A stretch of 64,000 nucleotides of DNA from Rheinheimera sp. UJ63 (GTDB taxonomy: Bacteria; Pseudomonadota; Gammaproteobacteria; Enterobacterales; Alteromonadaceae), in the NCBI RefSeq assembly GCF_021568285.1, contig NZ_JAKGTQ010000001.1, positions 1,116,001 to 1,180,000 on the forward strand, written 5' to 3'. The notes beneath the pieces are model-generated. The model made no database searches. It was not told the DNA's origin and saw only the letters and a program-made list of their open reading frames with translations. This document shows positions 3,501-43,552 of the stretch, one piece after another (position 1 is the first letter of the stretch; each line of letters starts with the position of its first letter). Made by a program: the position numbers and the translations under genes.

Positions 3501-3950
3501 CTACTTTCGGCACTGCTCAAGCTGTTGAATTTGCAGTTGCAAAGCACGCGCCTGTTCACGCAGTAACACCAATTCATCATCGGATAAGGCAACCTGACAA
3601 CGTAAAGCCGGCATCACATTGACCACTTGCTGCTCTAATGCTTGACCAAAAGGCGTGAGCACCACTTTTTTTACGCGCTCATCAGCGGGATCGCTTTGCC
3701 GCTGCAAAATGGCTTTTTGCTCTAACTTTTTAACCAGTGGCGTTAAAGTGCCCGAATCAAATAACGTCTGCTGCCCTAGTTGCCCCAAACTAATATTGTC
3801 TTGCTGCCATAAGGCGAGTAACACCACATACTGCGGATAGGTCAAATCAAACGGCTGCAATAAGGGCCGATACAAACGCATCATGGCGTTATTGGCGCTG
3901 TATAACGCAAAACACACTTGCTGCGCTAAAGGTAAGGTTTTCTCTGTCAT
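3501..3950 (-). CDS. ohrR: MarR-family organic-peroxide sensor OhrR
   Basis: A 149-residue winged-helix repressor of the OhrR branch. The N-terminal peroxide-sensing cysteine lies in LPLAQQVCFALYSANN (C13), and a second cysteine at about C118 (PALRCQV) suggests the two-cysteine type. The DNA-recognition segment LGQQTLFDSGTLTPLVKKLE and wing region RQSDPADERVKKVVLT are clear. I start it at the Met of MTEKTLPL because family members begin there; a longer frame from 4025 adds 25 residues without homology. It is divergent from ohr, the classic pairing in which OhrR represses both genes until an organic hydroperoxide oxidises it. Confidence 0.92.
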   Translation of the reverse strand: MTEKTLPLAQQVCFALYSANNAMMRLYRPLLQPFDLTYPQYVVLLALWQQDNISLGQLGQQTLFDSGTLTPLVKKLEQKAILQRQSDPADERVKKVVLTPFGQALEQQVVNVMPALRCQVALSDDELVLLREQARALQLQIQQLEQCRK

Positions 3951-4021
3951 ACCGCTGGTCTCATCTCGCCTTGCATGCTGCCTAGTATACGCTGATTCTC
4001 CGCTGCAGAGAAATATTTCAC

Positions 4022-4040
4022 GCAATTATATTGCACGCAA
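4022..4040. promoter_or_regulatory. Candidate OhrR operator
   Basis: The ohrR-ohr gap holds GCAAT-TAT-ATTGC (4022-4034), a perfect 5-3-5 inverted repeat, overlapping TTGC-AC-GCAA (4031-4040). The core CAATTATATTG resembles the AT-rich palindromes bound by OhrR in other bacteria (TACAATT/AATTGTA type). Assignment rests on position and similarity only. Confidence 0.5.
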
Positions 4041-4111
4041 GATAAATTAACGTTAGTATCTGTTCGTCCGGTGCTTAATCCGGTTTACTTACTCAACAAT
4101 TGGAGCGACAC

Positions 4112-4528
4112 ATGGAAATATTATACAAAGCCGTTGTTACCGCAACCGGTGGCCGTGATGGTCAAGTTAACTCAGATGATAATTTATTGAGCAGCAAATT
4201 AGCTGCGCCAAAAGCCTTGGGTGGTAAAGGTGATGCCACTAACCCTGAGCAATTATTTGCCGCCGGTTATGCCGCCTGTTTTATCGGCGCTTTAAAATTT
4301 GTTGCTGGCCAGCAAAAACTTGCCTTACCTGCAGACAGCACCATTCGTGGCGAAGTAGGCATTGGTAAAATCGAAGGGGGTTTTGGTTTAGATGTCGATT
4401 TATTTATTAACTTACCGGGTTTAGCCGCAGACCAAGCCGAGCAGTTAGTCGCTGCCGCGCACCAAGTTTGCCCATACTCAAACGCCACTCGCGGTAATAT
4501 TGAAGTACGCTTACACACTAGCGTTTAA
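4112..4528 (+). CDS. ohr: Organic hydroperoxide resistance protein Ohr
   Basis: A 138-residue OsmC/Ohr-fold thiol peroxidase that reduces organic and lipid hydroperoxides using lipoylated or dihydrolipoyl partners. Both catalytic cysteines are present: AAGYAACFIGAL (about C56) and HQVCPYSNATRGN (about C120). The catalytic Arg lies in GGRDG. I choose the second ATG (MEILYKAVVT) because family members begin there and TTGGAGCGACAC gives a good ribosome site; the first ATG at 4100 would overlap that site. Divergent from ohrR, so induction by organic peroxides is expected. Confidence 0.95.
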   Translation: MEILYKAVVTATGGRDGQVNSDDNLLSSKLAAPKALGGKGDATNPEQLFAAGYAACFIGALKFVAGQQKLALPADSTIRGEVGIGKIEGGFGLDVDLFINLPGLAADQAEQLVAAAHQVCPYSNATRGNIEVRLHTSV

Positions 4529-36465: not shown

Positions 36466-37029
36466 AGTGTTGATCCCATACTGAAAGCCATAAGTAATTG
36501 CTGGCATTATAGCCTGCATCTAAACCGAAACGGAAGAGCTTAGGCAGATTGTTAGTGCAGCGCATTGCATTGCCATGTGTAAACTTTTAGCCGCGACACC
36601 GCCGCAAAGGCTTATGCTTATTGCTTTATGCCAAAAGGCGCAGCAAAACGGTTTTTTTAAAGCGAAATTTTTTAAAAAAGAGGCTAGGCAAACCCGGTTA
36701 TTGTGATAGTCTGTTCGACCTGCTTGATGAGGATATTTGGCACCCAGGAAGAATTCGGGCCAGGCAGTAAAGCGTTTTCCACATTACGCAATGCAAAAAA
36801 ATAAGAATAACGGCACTTGCAGTTTCCCCGTTTAGTTAAATAAAAACAAACACTTAAAATACTACCATTAACATTCTGCCTCAAGCAGGATGACATTCTC
36901 CTATGGGTTTTGCACAAAGTTATCCACAGCTTACTCTCTTTTTAGCGCAGCAAAGTCAATCAGTTCAGCTGGTGGTAGGGGGATGGCTGTGGCATGCTAT
37001 TACGCATCAGCTTTGCAGGAATTATTATC
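36466..37029. promoter_or_regulatory. polA upstream region with a consensus DnaA box
   Basis: 564 bases without a convincing gene. The polA promoter is expected here but no strong -35/-10 pair stands out. A perfect DnaA box TTATCCACA lies at 36920-36928, about 100 bases before polA. A 54-codon frame from 36903 runs into polA and a 77-codon minus frame (36684-36917) lacks homology and ribosome sites; both are probably noise. Confidence 0.5.
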
Positions 37030-39828
37030 ATGGTATACATCCCCAAAAACCCGTTAATTTTGGTTGACGGATCCTCCTATTTATTTCGGGCTTATCATTC
37101 ACCACCGCACTTAACCAATTCAAAAGGCGAAGCCACTGGCGCTATTTATGGTGTGGTGAACATGCTTAAAAGCTTGTTAAAACAATATCAGCCCAGCGAA
37201 ATGGCCGTGGTGTTTGATGCGAAAGGCCCAACGTTTCGTAATGAAATGTATCAAGAGTACAAAGCACATCGCCCGCCGATGCCTGATGACCTACGCAGCC
37301 AAATTGCCCCGTTACATCTGATCATCGAAGCCATGGGTCTGCCTTTACTTTGTATTAGCGGCGTAGAAGCTGATGATGTTATCGGTACTATTGCCCGTCA
37401 AGCTAGCGCTGCGGGGCGTCATACGTTGATTTCAACCGGTGACAAAGATATGGCGCAGCTGGTAGACGAACATGTCACCCTAATTAACACGATGAACAAT
37501 ACGTTGCTCGACCCTATCTCGGTTAAAGAGAAATTTGGCGTCGGTCCGGAGTTGATTATCGATTATCTCGCGCTGATGGGCGACAAAGTTGATAACATTC
37601 CTGGCCTGCCTGGCGTAGGTGAAAAAACAGCCGCAGCCTTATTGCAAGGGCTGGGCTCAATTGAACACATTTATCAACAGCTTGATCAAGTTGCCACACT
37701 GACCTTTCGTGGTGCCAAAAATATGGCTGCCAAGTTGGCTGAACATAAAGCACAACTGGCGTTGTCTTACCAACTGGCCACGATTAAATGTGATGTCGAA
37801 TTACCCTATCAACTCACCGATTTACAGATCCGTCCCACAGACAAGCAACAGCTAAGCGAGCTGTACCGACAATGCGAATTTAAACGCTGGTTAGCCGAGA
37901 TCCTCAGTGACAGTGACACGAACACCGCGGGCACGTCGCAGCAACTCGAAAATGCCACAACTACTCACACAGCGACAGAACACACAACCGATGAACCCGT
38001 CAGGCAAGTGATTGATCGCAGTCAGTATCAAACGGTGCTGACCGAACAACAATTTACTGCATTGCTTCAAGAAATAAACCAAGCAGAATTAACCGCTTTT
38101 GATACGGAAACCACCAGCTTAGATTATATGCAGGCGGAATTGGTTGGTTTATCTTTTGCCACGGCAGCAGGAAAAGCATGGTATCTGCCTTTAGCGCATG
38201 ATTATTTAGGCGCGCCAGCGCAACTCGATCGCCAGTGGGTTTTAGCACAACTGCAGCCTTGGCTGGAAGATGACAACAAAGCCAAGGTTGGCCAAAACTT
38301 AAAATACGATCAAAGCGTGTTAGCGCGTTATCAATTAACCTTACGGGGTATCCGCTTTGATACCATGTTGGAATCTTATGTGCTTAACTCGGTAGCGGGC
38401 CGTCACGATATGGATTCGCTTGCGCTGAAGTATTTAGGTCATAACACTATTAGCTTTACTGATTTAGCCGGTAAAGGGGCTAAGCAGCTGACGTTTAATC
38501 AAATTGAACTTGCCCAAGCCGCAGAATATGCCGCTGAAGATGCCGATGTGACACTGCAACTGCATCAAACGCTATGGCCACAATTGCAACAAAGTCGTGA
38601 ACTGGTCAAAGTGTTTACTGAGATCGAGCTGCCTTTAGTGAACATTTTGTCGACAATAGAGCGCCACGGCGTGCTGATTGATAGCAACTTGTTGGCCAAG
38701 CAAAGTGAACAGTTAACTGCCCGTATTAAAGAGCTAGAACACTTGGCTTACGATGCAGCAGGCAAAGAATTTAATCTGGCCTCGCCAAAACAACTGCAAG
38801 AGATCCTGTTCGAGCAGATGAAGTTACCGGTATTGAAAAAGACACCGAGTGGCACCCCGTCGACTGCCGAAGAAGTGCTCGCTGAGCTTGCTTTAGAATA
38901 TGACTTTCCAAAACTGATCACTGAGCATCGTGGTTTAAGTAAGTTACGCTCTACTTATACCGATAAACTGCCGAAGATGGTGAATCCCGCTACGGGGCGC
39001 GTGCACACCTCCTATCATCAGGCGGTAGCCGCCACCGGTCGCTTGAGCTCTACAGAACCGAATTTACAAAATATTCCGATCCGTACCGAAGAAGGCCGAC
39101 GCATCCGCCAAGCCTTTATTGCCCCTGCTGGTAAATGCATCCTGGCCATCGATTACTCGCAAATCGAATTACGTATTATGGCGCACCTATCGCAAGATAA
39201 GGCCTTACTGGATGCCTTTGCTAATGGTCTTGATGTGCATAAAGCTACCGCTGCTGAAGTGTTTGCCATTAGCTTAGATGAAGTGACTAGCGAGCAGCGC
39301 CGCCGCGCCAAGGCCGTCAACTTTGGGCTCATTTATGGCATGTCTGCTTTTGGTTTAGCCAAACAACTGGGTATTGCTCGCCATGAAGCACAGCATTATG
39401 TTGACCGCTATTTTGAGCGTTTCCCTGGTGTACTGGATTATATGGAGCGCACACGAAAGCAAGCGCATGATCAAGGCTATGTTGAAACACTGTTTGGTCG
39501 CCGCTTATATTTGCCTGACATTAATGCCCGCAATATGGGTCGCCAAAAAGGCGCCGAACGTGCGGCCATTAATGCCCCTATGCAAGGCACCGCAGCCGAC
39601 ATTATCAAATTAGCCATGATCAAGGTGGCGGCGTGGTTGGAACAACACGATAACAACGCTGTGCAAATGATTATGCAGGTGCACGATGAATTGGTGTTTG
39701 AAGTGGCAGAGCAGGAGGTTGAGCGCGTTGCTGCCGAGTTAAAAACCTTGCTAGCCAGTGCCGCATCATTAGATGTGCCACTTTTAGCAGAAGCCGGTTA
39801 TGGTAAAAACTGGGATGAAGCACATTAA
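37030..39828 (+). CDS. polA: DNA polymerase I
   Basis: A 932-residue repair and Okazaki-fragment polymerase. The N-terminal 5' nuclease domain begins [28 protein letters not shown] (E. coli: [23 protein letters not shown]) and carries [10 protein letters not shown] and [10 protein letters not shown]. The 3'-5' exonuclease is intact ([25 protein letters not shown]). Polymerase motif A is [14 protein letters not shown], motif [19 protein letters not shown] and motif [11 protein letters not shown] start at the Met with AGGA upstream, which fits the family; a frame from 36994 adds 12 residues. Spot 42 RNA follows, as in enterics. Confidence 0.97.
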
Positions 39829-39917: not shown

Positions 39918-39945
39918 TTGCAATAGTGCAAAAATTAGCTAAAAT
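39918..39945 (+). promoter_or_regulatory. Spot 42 RNA promoter
   Basis: TTGCAA (39918-39923), 16-base spacer, TAAAAT (39940-39945), seven bases before the expected 5' G. No clear CRP palindrome was found. Confidence 0.7.
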
Positions 39946-39952
39946 TTGCGCT

Positions 39953-40065
39953 GTAGGGTACAGAGGTAAGATATTCTATCTTTCGCTTCAGTATGTTTTT
40001 ACTATTGAAGATCAGAAAGTAGGCTTTATTAGCCGCCCCGCTGCTTGCAGCGGGGCGTTTTTTTT
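39953..40065 (+). ncRNA. spf: Spot 42 small RNA
   Basis: The 5' end GTAGGGTACAGAGGTAAGAT and following TTCTATCTTTC match E. coli Spot 42 almost base for base. The 3' end AGCCGCCCC...GGGGCG plus eight T residues is the same terminator design. It sits between polA and engB, the conserved location. Spot 42 is an Hfq-dependent RNA that represses secondary carbon-source genes and, in enterics, is itself repressed by CRP-cAMP. The middle part (about 39992-40030) is divergent. Confidence 0.96.
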
Positions 40066-40172: not shown

Positions 40173-40302
40173 GTGAATACTTCAAACTGCATCAGTTGGG
40201 TGTTATGATCAACACGTCTTAACAGTAAGACATCCTGTTGATTGAATTTATATAGCTTCTCCCCTGCTTGCTATAACCGACCCCCTTGGGTCGGTTTTTT
40301 TA
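40173..40302 (+). ncRNA. Candidate small RNA between Spot 42 and engB
   Basis: A plus-strand transcript is suggested by a strong terminator (ACCGACCC-CCTT-GGGTCGGT at 40276-40295 plus eight T residues) that faces away from engB and is separate from the Spot 42 terminator. Two possible promoters: TTGCTA-N17-TAAAAT (40138-40166) and TTCAAA-N17-TATGAT (40181-40209). The RNA would hold a hairpin ATCAACA-GTCTTA/TAAGAC-TGTTGAT (40208-40242), a second stem TATAGC/GCTATA (40251-40275) displaying a CU-rich 13-base loop TTCTCCCCTGCTT, and the terminator. The loop resembles an anti-Shine-Dalgarno seed. No family recognised; 5' end uncertain. Confidence 0.55.
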
Positions 40303-40917
40303 TGCCGCGTTATCGTCGTTAAACCACTGATCTAGCGTTTGTTCTAATTCGGGTAAACCAAACTTATTTAACGAGCTAAAAGCCTGTACCTTAACATCAC
40401 CCATAAAGGCCATGGCCGCATCACGTACTTCCAGCACAATTTTATTCCGAGCACCAGGCCCCAGTTTATCGGCCTTAGTCAGTAAAATCAGCACCGGCAA
40501 TTGGCTTTGCACCGCCCAATGAATGAGTTGCTGATCCAAATCTTTTAACGGATGACGAATATCCATTAATACCACTAAGCCTTTAAGACTTTGCCGTTTT
40601 TCTAGATACTCAGACAGTGACTTCTGCCATTTTTCTTTTACAGCTAAAGGCACTTTGGCAAAACCATAACCGGGTAAGTCGATTAATCTTTTATGCTCGG
40701 CCAACGTAAAGGTATTAATCAGCTGAGTACGACCTGGCGTTTTACTGGTTCTGGCCAAAGCATTTTGGCGTGTTAAAGTATTTAATGCGCTGGATTTACC
40801 GGCATTCGAACGTCCGGCAAAGGCAACTTCGATGCCGTTGTCTGCGGGTAATGCCTTAATATCCGGGGCGCTGGTAAGAAAACGTGTTTGTTGATAATTT
40901 AATTTAATAGACGACAC
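40300..40917 (-). CDS. engB: Ribosome-biogenesis GTPase EngB (YihA/YsxC)
   Basis: A 205-residue TRAFAC GTPase required for 50S assembly. G1 is [10 protein letters not shown]2 KTPGRTQ, G3 [11 protein letters not shown]4 LLTKADK, and G5 lies in [10 protein letters not shown]. Position downstream of and convergent with polA-spf is as in E. coli. Its stop codon directly abuts the plus-strand terminator of the candidate sRNA. Confidence 0.96.
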
Positions 40918-41110: not shown

Positions 41111-41737
41111 ATGAAAAAAATCATACTTCCTCTGGCGCTGTTATTCGGTTTAGTCGGTACAGCTCATGCTTTTGACGGTAACGCCGAAGCAGGCAAAGCA
41201 AAATCTGCCACTTGTGCGGCTTGCCATGGTCCTGACGGTAACAGCGTTGTGACCATTTATCCTAAATTAGCAGGTCAACACGCTGAATATTTATATAAAC
41301 AGTTAACCGATTATAAGTTAGGTATGACCACTGGCGGGAAAGAAGGTCGTGCTAATGCCATCATGTACGGAATGGTTGCTGCATTATCTGATCAAGATAT
41401 GCAAGATTTAGCCGCTTACTTCTCTTCTCAGCGCATTACATCTGGCACCACCCCAGAAGAAGTGATCGAAGTAGGTCAAAAGCTGTATCGTGGCGGTGAT
41501 GCCGATCGCGGTATTCCAGCTTGTATCGCCTGTCATGGTCCACGTGGCGCAGGTACTAGCTTAGCGGGTTTCCCAAGAATCGGCTTCCAGAACGCAGACT
41601 ATGTTAAAGCCACTTTAGAAGAATTTCGTGCTGGCACTCGTGCTAACGACATGAACGGCATGATGCGTGATGTGGCCAAAAAGCTGACTGACGATGATAT
41701 TAAAATTCTGTCGCAATACTTAGGCGGCTTACACTAA
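41111..41737 (+). CDS. Cytochrome c4 (diheme)
   Basis: A 208-residue periplasmic diheme cytochrome. Signal peptide MKKIILPLALLFGLVGTAHA; two heme motifs CAACHG (first domain) and CIACHG (second domain) with Met ligands in the MYGMVAAL and NGMMRDVA segments. The two halves are homologous (PKLAGQHAEYLYKQL... / PRIGFQNADYVKATL). Cytochrome c4 is an electron donor to terminal oxidases such as cbb3. It ends at a strong terminator and lies between engB and the Csr-like RNA. Confidence 0.95.
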   Translation: MKKIILPLALLFGLVGTAHAFDGNAEAGKAKSATCAACHGPDGNSVVTIYPKLAGQHAEYLYKQLTDYKLGMTTGGKEGRANAIMYGMVAALSDQDMQDLAAYFSSQRITSGTTPEEVIEVGQKLYRGGDADRGIPACIACHGPRGAGTSLAGFPRIGFQNADYVKATLEEFRAGTRANDMNGMMRDVAKKLTDDDIKILSQYLGGLH

Positions 41738-41751
41738 TACTTAGTAATTAG

Positions 41752-41780
41752 AAAAAACCGGCGAAAAAGCCGGTTTTTTT
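41752..41780. terminator. Terminator after cytochrome c4
   Basis: AAAACCGGC/GCCGGTTTT stem with a six-base A-rich loop and a T7 tract on the plus strand. Confidence 0.92.
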
Positions 41781-41790
41781 TATGCCGTTT

Positions 41791-41808
41791 TGTGAGAAAT
41801 ATCTTACA
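41791..41808 (+). promoter_or_regulatory. GacA/UvrY/VarA-type activator box of the Csr RNA
   Basis: TGTGAG-N6-CTTACA at 41791-41808 differs by one base from the GacA-box consensus TGTAAG-N6-CTTACA and has the arm sequences of the enteric UvrY inverted repeat. A further half site TGTAAG is at 41814-41819. It is about 140 bases upstream of the proposed start of the Csr-like RNA, in line with the distant upstream position of UvrY sites at csrB. Confidence 0.8.
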
Positions 41809-41941
41809 AAGCATGTAAGACATCACCTATAGTTGAATTTTAATTGAACTATTCCAACTTTCTACACTTAACTTAAACCACTGAAAAATAATACGATATA
41901 GACTAAAGTCTAATTTTTTTCAGGTTTTTTATACTCAAGCG

Positions 41942-42276
41942 CTTGTTATCTGATTAGATCGGAGTAAATTAACTCTATCGCCGTTAGCGGTAAAACAACA
42001 GGGAATTTAGGTTAAGGAAGCCGCATGCACATTATGTGCGCTGTGTTTAAAGATGCTCAGATGGTGTTACGCGTGAACCACGCGCAAGGAAGATTACGAA
42101 AGCATTAGGAAGATCATAAATAAGAAAACTTTTGCACGGACAGCAAACAATAATATAGGGATAATTCGCAACACGGTGTTGACTGCGCATCAGGATGAAT
42201 TGCATCATTCCAAAGGTGTGTCCACCTCTAGGCACGAATAAACAGGGCGATAAGTTAATCTTATCGCCCTTTGTTT
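41942..42276 (+). ncRNA. CsrB/CsrC-like CsrA-sequestering RNA
   Basis: No ORF fits this gap, but it has an activator box upstream, a -10 TATACT (41930-41935), and a strong terminator (11-bp stem AGGGCGATAAG, 42244-42270, then TTGTTTT). The RNA of about 335 bases holds eight GGA motifs (41961, 42002, 42016, 42088, 42108, 42138, 42159, 42193). Several sit in hairpin loops, for example TTTGC-ACGGACA-GCAAA (42131-42147) and TCA-GGA-TGA (42190-42198). E. coli csrC lies between engB (yihA) and yihI, the same neighbours as here. The role would be to bind and titrate CsrA under BarA/UvrY control. The 5' end is approximate. Confidence 0.85.
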
Positions 42277-42286
42277 TGGATGTAAT

Positions 42287-42934
42287 ATGCAACAATCAAT
42301 CTGCCCATTATGCGGCCATGCTGATACTCATCGCTATAACGCCCAACTGCACCCCCCATACTGGCAATGTCAGCGTTGTGCCTTGGTGTTTTTAGATCGG
42401 CAGCACCTACTCACTGCCGAACAAGAAAAACAACACTATTTGCTACACAACAATGATCTGAACGATGCGGGTTATCGGCTATTTCTGAATAAATTGGCAG
42501 CGCCCTTACTGCAAACCTTGGGCAATACCACGAAAAGTGGCTTAGACTTTGGATGCGGTCCCGGCCCGTTGCTAGCCAATATGTTACAGGAAGCCGGTCA
42601 TCAGATGCAGGTTTGGGATCCCTTCTTTGCCAATGACCCCGCCCCGTTAGAGCAGCAATACGATTTTATCAGCTGCACCGAAGCGATTGAGCACTTTGTC
42701 GATCCGCTTAACGAGTGGCAATTATGGCTACAACTGTTAAAGCCGGCAGGGGTGCTCGCGATTATGACCAAATGTTATCCAACCGCAGAGGCGTTCAGCA
42801 ATTGGTATTATCGACGAGATCCGACACATATTAGTTTCTTTAGTCAGGCAACATTTCGTTGGTTAGCAGCACAATATCAGCTTAAGGTGGCATTTCCAGC
42901 GAATGATGTGGTGATCTTCAGCAAAGCTGGGTAA
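42287..42934 (+). CDS. Class I SAM-dependent methyltransferase with N-terminal zinc ribbon
   Basis: A 215-residue protein. The N-terminus has a four-cysteine knuckle (CPLCGHADTHRYN...YWQCQRCALVF). The methyltransferase fold follows: motif I LDFGCGPGPLLANML (about 85-99), acidic loop VWDPFF, and motif IV YDFISCTEAIEHFVDPLNE. The substrate is unknown; the Cys knuckle is common in methyltransferases of small molecules and of lipid/sugar pathways. The ATG lies only 10 bases past the Csr RNA terminator, with GGATG about 6 bases upstream, so expression may need terminator readthrough or a promoter inside the Csr RNA gene. Confidence 0.88.
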   Translation: MQQSICPLCGHADTHRYNAQLHPPYWQCQRCALVFLDRQHLLTAEQEKQHYLLHNNDLNDAGYRLFLNKLAAPLLQTLGNTTKSGLDFGCGPGPLLANMLQEAGHQMQVWDPFFANDPAPLEQQYDFISCTEAIEHFVDPLNEWQLWLQLLKPAGVLAIMTKCYPTAEAFSNWYYRRDPTHISFFSQATFRWLAAQYQLKVAFPANDVVIFSKAG

Positions 42935-42967: not shown

Positions 42968-43552
42968 ATGACGCGTCAAAAAAAATCCCGCAATGCTGGC
43001 AACAATGGCCAACGCCATTTACCTGCCAGTGAGATCCGCAAAACCCGAGAAACCAAAGAAGAGACCAAGAAGAAAGGCTCTGGCCTGAAATCGGGTACTC
43101 GTAACAGTATGCAACAAAGTAAAGATGCACAAGCTGAAGCGAACAAAGCCAAAAAAGATCCGCGAATTGGTAGCAAAAAACCTATCGCGTTAATCGCTGA
43201 GCCTACTTTGGTTGAGCAGATGCCCAACGTGGTCAGTGCCATACCCAAAGCACAGTTAAAAGCGGTTAAAGCTGAAACACTGACACCAGAGCAAGAGTTG
43301 GCCAGTATCGAAGCCGATGAGCGTCTACAAGCCCTATTAGAGCGCGTTGAGCAAGACGAAGTATTAACCGGCAAAGATGCAAAATACTTTAATAGCAAAA
43401 CGGCACGCTTAAGTGAGCTGTTACAGTTATTAGGCTTAGATGACGCCGATGACGAAGCAACGCGCAACGATAGCGCAGACGAAGAAGAAGATCCATTAGC
43501 GCGTTTTGAGCGTACCGACTGGCGTAAAACTTTGCTAGGCGATGAGGATTAA
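42968..43552 (+). CDS. yihI: Der GTPase-activating protein YihI
   Basis: A 194-residue hydrophilic protein. The N-terminus MTRQKKSRNAGNNGQRHLPASEIRKTRETKEETKKKGSGLKSGTR is the highly basic YihI signature, and the acidic C-terminus (LEELLQLLGL-like segment LSELLQLLGLDDADDEA, then WRKTLLGDED) binds Der. YihI stimulates GTP hydrolysis by the ribosome-assembly GTPase Der. Its position next to engB and a Csr RNA matches E. coli. It is followed directly by the DUF2489 gene. Confidence 0.93.
   Translation: MTRQKKSRNAGNNGQRHLPASEIRKTRETKEETKKKGSGLKSGTRNSMQQSKDAQAEANKAKKDPRIGSKKPIALIAEPTLVEQMPNVVSAIPKAQLKAVKAETLTPEQELASIEADERLQALLERVEQDEVLTGKDAKYFNSKTARLSELLQLLGLDDADDEATRNDSADEEEDPLARFERTDWRKTLLGDED

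Follow-up and report, generated by a model that had tools for sequence, protein, structure and literature searches.

Among the known Csr-type RNAs closest to the locus reported here are those of Escherichia coli. In E. coli K-12, csrC lies in the order polA-spf-yihA-csrC-yihI, and by our reading its promoter has the layout TTGTTT-N16-TAAAGT, with the annotated start 8 nt past the -10 element. Zere et al. (PMC4682653) describe, in the part of their paper available, a csrB repeat TGTGAGAGATCTCTTACA followed 5 bp downstream by TGTAGGAGA, and a TGTAAG site 16 bp upstream of the csrC repeat. In Pseudoalteromonas fuliginea BSW20308, Duan et al. (PMC11882849) reported Pf3, a Csr small RNA with 9 GGA motifs. 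They demonstrated its binding to CsrA by EMSA and its enrichment by CsrA RIP-seq, and found that it increased the glycogen of E. coli. The accessible sections of that report describe zebrafish sequences aligning to Pf3 as TAA/AAT-rich, and name no bacterial match outside the genus other than Thalassotalea sp. LPB0316. For Shewanella oneidensis, the excerpted study (PMC3171408) presents CsrB1 and CsrB2 as Csr RNAs that depend on UvrY; their box is of the kind seen at our locus but, unlike it, they are placed between SO_1615 and SO_1617; the csrC predicted there (mutM/SO_4727) also differs, being independent of BarA/UvrY.

The locus described here lies in a 64-kb window (the whole stretch of DNA that was analysed) from a 3.84-Mb genome, and sequence comparison indicates that it very probably encodes a Csr-type small RNA of the CsrB/CsrC class. 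The genome is termed Alishewanella-like because, among the named genomes listed, the closest relative of the cytochrome c4-like protein is that of Alishewanella tabrizica (92%). The order in the window is polA, a gap holding a sub-threshold Spot 42 match, yihA on the minus strand, the cytochrome gene, the candidate RNA, a methyltransferase-like gene and yihI, which matches the E. coli order. The initial annotation had placed the RNA in the E. coli csrC neighbourhood, with yihA and yihI as flanks and cytochrome c4 and methyltransferase genes added, and these neighbours were found as claimed, YihI and YihA exceeding their NCBIfam cut-offs. No NCBIfam model passed its cut-off over the cytochrome c4-like protein. 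The Spot 42 match (39943-40064, 53.7 bits, cut-off 80, E 1.3e-8) sits in the gap between polA and yihA, the position of spf in E. coli. Across 29 loci of the genus, the RNA is surrounded by yihA, the cytochrome gene and yihI; the methyltransferase is absent from one of them, L024 (genome G022), where the RNA is retained without a recognisable UvrY box.

Table 1 Features of the candidate RNA locus and its neighbours, in window coordinates.
Feature	Position	Strand	Remarks
polA	36994-39828		named from its sequence
yihA/engB	40300..40917	-	TIGR03598, 237.5 bits (cut-off 124.45)
Cytochrome c4-like diheme protein, upstream neighbour	41111..41737	+	which we take to be cytochrome c4-like; name from the initial annotation and from its sequence
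UvrY/GacA inverted repeat TGTGAGAAATATCTTACA	41791..41808	+	predicted; similar repeat in 27/29 genus loci
Second UvrY half-site TGTAAGACA	41814..41822	+	predicted; 5 bp past the repeat
Inferred -35 element TTGTTA	41943..41948	+	TTG..AT invariant in 29/29 loci
Inferred -10 element TAAATT	41965..41970	+	16-nt spacer; GTA.ATT invariant in 29/29 loci
Csr-type sRNA (csrC-like)	41977..42274	+	predicted; start inferred +/- 3 nt; ~298 nt
GGA site 1 (ACAGGGA)	42002..42004	+	29/29 loci
GGA site 2	42016..42018	+	loop of predicted GGUU/AGCC hairpin; 23 + 6 of 29 loci, two adjacent columns
GGA site 3	42059..42061	+	AGA in the window; GGA in 28/29 loci; loop of covarying 6-bp hairpin
GGA site 4 (CAAGGAAGA)	42088..42090	+	29/29 loci
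GGA site 5	42108..42110	+	conserved; loop of 3-bp hairpin, 100% of cells paired
GGA site 6 (CACGGACA)	42138..42140	+	22 + 7 of 29 loci, two adjacent columns
GGA site 7 (ATAGGGATA)	42159..42161	+	29/29 loci
GGA site 8 (ATCAGGATGA)	42193..42195	+	29/29 loci; hairpin loop, 82.8% of cells paired
Intrinsic terminator	42244..42276	+	11-bp stem (42244-42270) and T-rich tail
Methyltransferase-like gene, optional downstream neighbour	42287..42934	+	weak UbiG match only
yihI, Der GTPase-activating protein	42968..43552	+	NF003560, 130.6 bits (cut-off 90)

The limits of the transcript were deduced from conserved elements at both ends. A sigma-70 scan did not flag the putative -35 and -10 elements, which match 8 of the 12 consensus positions by our count. 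Because their layout resembles that of E. coli csrC, with its start 8 nt past the -10 element, transcription would begin at about 41977; the start near 41942 proposed earlier falls on the conserved -35 element and was abandoned. At the 3' end, the 11-bp terminator was recovered as an 11-pair stem with a T-rich tail. Nine of its stem pairs were counted in the alignment and are paired in 100% of cells over the 29 loci, and since this stem hardly varies, it says little on covariation.

The GacA/UvrY box claimed upstream is present, and the predicted repeat lies ~186 bp before the inferred start. In the 27 of 29 genus loci that carry such a repeat, it stands at a near-constant 149-152 bp before the -35 element, and an NGTR-like half-site, judged by eye, occurs at 22-23 bp in all 27; no recognisable box was seen in L024 and L025. 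The pattern TGTNAGN6CTNACA has a sole match in the window, TGTGAGAAATATCTTACA, against a shuffle average of 0.05. A looser pattern, TGTNNGANNNNTCNNACA, finds 3 sites in the 3.84-Mb genome (a reversed control pattern finds 2): the TGTGAGAAATATCTTACA box, a site that precedes another Csr-like RNA, and a third that is apparently due to chance. Between the box and the promoter, a block around TTGAACT (~41842-41852) is conserved in most genus loci, and is possibly the site of another regulator.

The GGA motifs of the RNA were examined both by number and by conservation. Eight GGA do occur within 41942-42276, as first counted over about 335 bases, but the one at 41961 lies between the inferred -35 and -10 elements, hence in the promoter and not in the RNA, and is found in 6 of the 29 loci. 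Over 339 nt (41942-42280) there are 9 GGA against a dinucleotide-shuffle mean of 5.2, a number attained in 3.6% of 500 such shuffles, or in 11.8% when mononucleotides are shuffled instead; being barely above chance, this count was set aside as main evidence. Rfam and single-sequence folding, which the initial annotation had proposed as checks, gave no family at threshold and a fold slightly better than shuffles (z -1.68, or -1.50 for the corrected transcript), which is unremarkable. The GGA number and the single fold are both near chance; the strong evidence is comparative, coming from the conserved GGA sites. Pairwise identity among the 29 loci ranges from 59 to 99% (median 69%). Eight positions hold a GGA in 28-29 of these loci, against a mean of 8.1 GGA occurrences per RNA, and any trinucleotide other than GGA reaches this level of conservation (28 loci or more) at two positions at most. 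The window itself keeps 7 of the eight.

The structure shared by these loci was assessed with a model of seven helices and 37 pairs, in which 95.0% of cells pair over the 29 loci; it was drawn from the single member L020, a choice that favours it. When the partners were slid by 1-3 columns as a control, 23-58% paired. Doubly changed cells number 57 against 19.9 in shuffles, and none of 500 shuffles reached as high. Three of the seven helices, all covarying hairpins, hold a GGA in the loop. The earlier statement that several GGA sit in hairpin loops stands for three conserved sites; the remaining sites may lie in loops or in single strands.

Curated models leave the candidate without a family assignment. 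In the 64-kb window, no Rfam family other than a tRNA reached threshold, and the gathering thresholds of RF00084 (CsrC) and RF00018 (CsrB) were not reached at the loci tested, while E. coli csrC as control scored 278.7 bits. The candidate is not filed as a member of RF00084 or RF00018. For 5 of the 31 genus genomes, the Rfam CsrB model gives a match at the candidate locus that stays below its cut-off. In E-value mode, 41740-42320 returned 28 matches, many of them over an upstream terminator; that to Yersinia CsrC (RF02767, 21.9 bits, E 0.0014, cut-off 279) was not counted as membership.

We used a covariance model, R1, built on the 29 genus loci, which spans only the 3' 205 positions and is blind to gene order; its reverse-strand matches overlap the symmetric terminator and were disregarded. 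On 96 kb of E. coli, R1 ranks csrC first, with a match over the full length of the model (19.1 bits, E 0.0024), and csrB is not matched. However, similar R1 scores, up to 18.8 bits, are reached by CsrB-like paralogues in the genus (20 of 31 other loci or genomes). The candidate is likely an orthologue of E. coli csrC, a claim that rests on position and promoter layout. Both RNAs occupy the yihA-yihI slot on the same strand, with Spot 42 between polA and yihA, and this slot is common to E. coli, alteromonad and Vibrio loci. Both have paired TGTRAG sites 22-23 bp apart, at ~-190/-168 in E. coli and -186/-163 here, a TTGTTW-N16-TAAAWT promoter, GGA sites and a GGCGA...CGCC terminator (promoter, sites and terminator by our reading). 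In contrast, the candidate scores below the RF00084 cut-off, is flanked by cytochrome c4 and methyltransferase genes, and measures ~298 nt against the 246 annotated for csrC; its near-perfect repeat resembles that of csrB, while the csrC repeat is weaker in symmetry according to the available text of PMC4682653.

The main competing explanation is that the RNA arose separately in this slot, or has diverged too far for descent to show, in which case it would be an analogue and not an orthologue of E. coli csrC. The narrow R1 difference between csrC and the paralogues speaks for it, as does direct alignment to E. coli csrC, which is modest (RNA global z 3.4; upstream region global z 3.9 and local z 0.4, with global z from -0.1 to 4.3 over the 29 loci) and was not used as proof. 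The shared slot and strand, the full-length R1 match that passes over csrB, and the common site spacing and promoter all speak against it, and we regard a separate origin as unlikely, though it keeps an appreciable share of our belief. On the reading of orthology, csrC would be an old fixed locus (polA-spf-yihA-csrC-yihI) of enterobacteria, vibrios and alteromonads, with Pf3 its orthologue, a wider proposal that we find somewhat favoured by the data.

The RNA is present in every genome of the genus that was examined. Searching by DNA recovered the RNA portion of the region from 28 of the 30 genomes other than that of the window; G021 and G025, which were outside model building, gave covariance-model matches at E 2.6e-46 and 1.8e-30, and the RNA thus occurs in 31/31 genus genomes (29 model loci and the two held-out genomes). 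A wider set of 62 loci, composed of L001 and 61 of 80 others (leaving aside 8 close loci from the genus and 11 from beta-proteobacteria), gave a plus-strand R1 match at E <= 0.001 in 37. As L036, L037, L041, L042 and L092 come from the same contigs as model loci and hence are not independent, the count independent of the model is 32 of 57. Matching loci include Rheinheimera, Alkalimonas, Pseudoalteromonas, Alteromonas, Ferrimonas and Vibrio. The other 25 of the 62 loci lack a match at E 0.001; no convincing R1 match was seen in Rheinheimera L055 and L067, four Aliivibrio loci, two Thalassotalea loci (L095, L096), or the Agarivorans and Idiomarina loci, and none of seven beta-proteobacterial cytochrome c4 loci matched.

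Neighbouring genes provide the best control on weak R1 matches, because R1 knows no genes. Among 35 further loci with plus-strand matches outside the model (L071, L072, L075 and L081 being weaker than E 0.001, and L048, equal in score to L047, omitted), 34 have yihI, 22 the methyltransferase and 19 the box, leaving 16 without a recognisable box; the Alteromonas-like L069, L073 and L079 have just 4-6 GGA and no box. An order-wide R1 search, with stricter filters that lose weak matches, matched 45 of 295 genomes and left 250 without a match. Of 29 loci from this search (the 30 listed minus the window's own; one is from the genus), 28 adjoin cytochrome c4, methyltransferase or yihI.

The same gene orders bear on the alternative that the region is no free small RNA but acts in cis on the methyltransferase or yihI mRNA, as its leader or attenuator. 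The T-rich tail stops ~10 nt short of the methyltransferase start, and 22 of the 35 further loci have that gene next in line, as a leader would have it. The RNA is nevertheless kept where the methyltransferase was not found, in L024 and in 13 of the 35, and this indifference to the gene speaks against its being the gene's leader. A strong terminator stem is also present in 29/29 loci, and eight conserved GGA sites with a UvrY repeat are not generally expected in a leader; we consider this reading very improbable. Least probable of all is a small protein gene, or a nonfunctional spacer with a conserved terminator: overlapping ORFs exist (82 aa on the minus and 66 aa on the plus strand) and the longest frame exceeds shuffles in some loci (L019, 100 codons, shuffle mean 60), but the longest frames run from 48 to 100 codons against shuffle means of 57-67 with changing strands and frames, 357 of 477 alignment gap runs are not multiples of three, and it is the GGA triplets and hairpins on which conservation centres.

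For the free Csr-type RNA, the partners expected of such a system are encoded in the same genome. CsrA gives one match (88.3 bits), UvrY scores 351.3 bits (cut-off 280), and a BarA-like kinase reaches 869.8 bits, slightly under its cut-off of 890, over positions 1-907 of 920. With these proteins, the conserved GGA sites and hairpins and the box in 27 of 29 loci, the assignment to a Csr-type regulatory RNA made in the initial annotation is supported. Phosphorylated UvrY would bind the inverted repeat and half-site ~186 bp upstream and activate the promoter at 41943-41970, giving a stand-alone RNA of ~298 nt that ends at the hairpin 42244-42270. Hairpin loops and A-rich single strands of this RNA would expose the conserved GGA sites, of which the window has seven and most relatives eight, and these sites may bind CsrA dimers and thereby free CsrA-regulated mRNAs. 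It would act alongside a larger CsrB-like RNA of the same genome.

That second RNA lies at L001 1317-1940 on contig C17, has a terminator-like 3' end, and sits between peroxidase-like and amtB-like genes, both named by sequence only. It holds 23 GGA in 453 nt, against a mononucleotide-shuffle mean of 11.7 and a maximum of 21 in 2000 shuffles, carries the box TGTGCGAGATCTCTCACA, and scores 35 bits with the CsrB model, below the cut-off of 71. A sub-threshold CsrB-model match occurs in 31/31 genus genomes; all 20 loci examined, from 31 other CsrB-model loci or genomes, show a box with 18-26 GGA after it, next to a gene related to the peroxidase-like one. Compared with the CsrB/RsmB family (RF00018), the candidate RNA is alike in the proposed mechanism, the UvrY repeat and the half-site 5 bp downstream, as in E. 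coli csrB, but differs in its fewer GGA (7-8), the CsrB-like RNA with 23 GGA being encoded in the same genome.

Judged by the published description of Pf3, the candidate RNA is possibly its counterpart. The slot RNA in Pseudoalteromonas L089 and L107 has 9 GGA, AAT repeats and a box, in keeping with what the available sections of PMC11882849 say of Pf3; unlike the Thalassotalea match mentioned there, R1 has no match in Thalassotalea L095 and L096. The kind of RNA is already known, and what the present find adds is the shared slot and the probable Pf3 link. If the slot is indeed ancestral, Csr RNAs thought to be new in each genus would be one diverging lineage, traceable by slot, UvrY box and GGA sites, which bears on whether Csr RNAs arise repeatedly or descend from one locus. 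The same three marks can locate such RNAs where sequence models fail. The Alishewanella/Arsukibacterium/Rheinheimera group gains a probable Csr RNA pair, one CsrB-like and one CsrC-like. In literature searches outside of which most subscription papers fall, no work joined Rheinheimera with CsrB, papers on Alishewanella with small RNA were unrelated by title, and term counts among the matches listed joined none on Arsukibacterium with CsrC or UvrY. In Vibrio L076, where no Rfam family passes its cut-off over the slot RNA, and likewise in L074 and L078, the same slot (~3840-4175) holds an RNA richer in GGA, with 14 counted.
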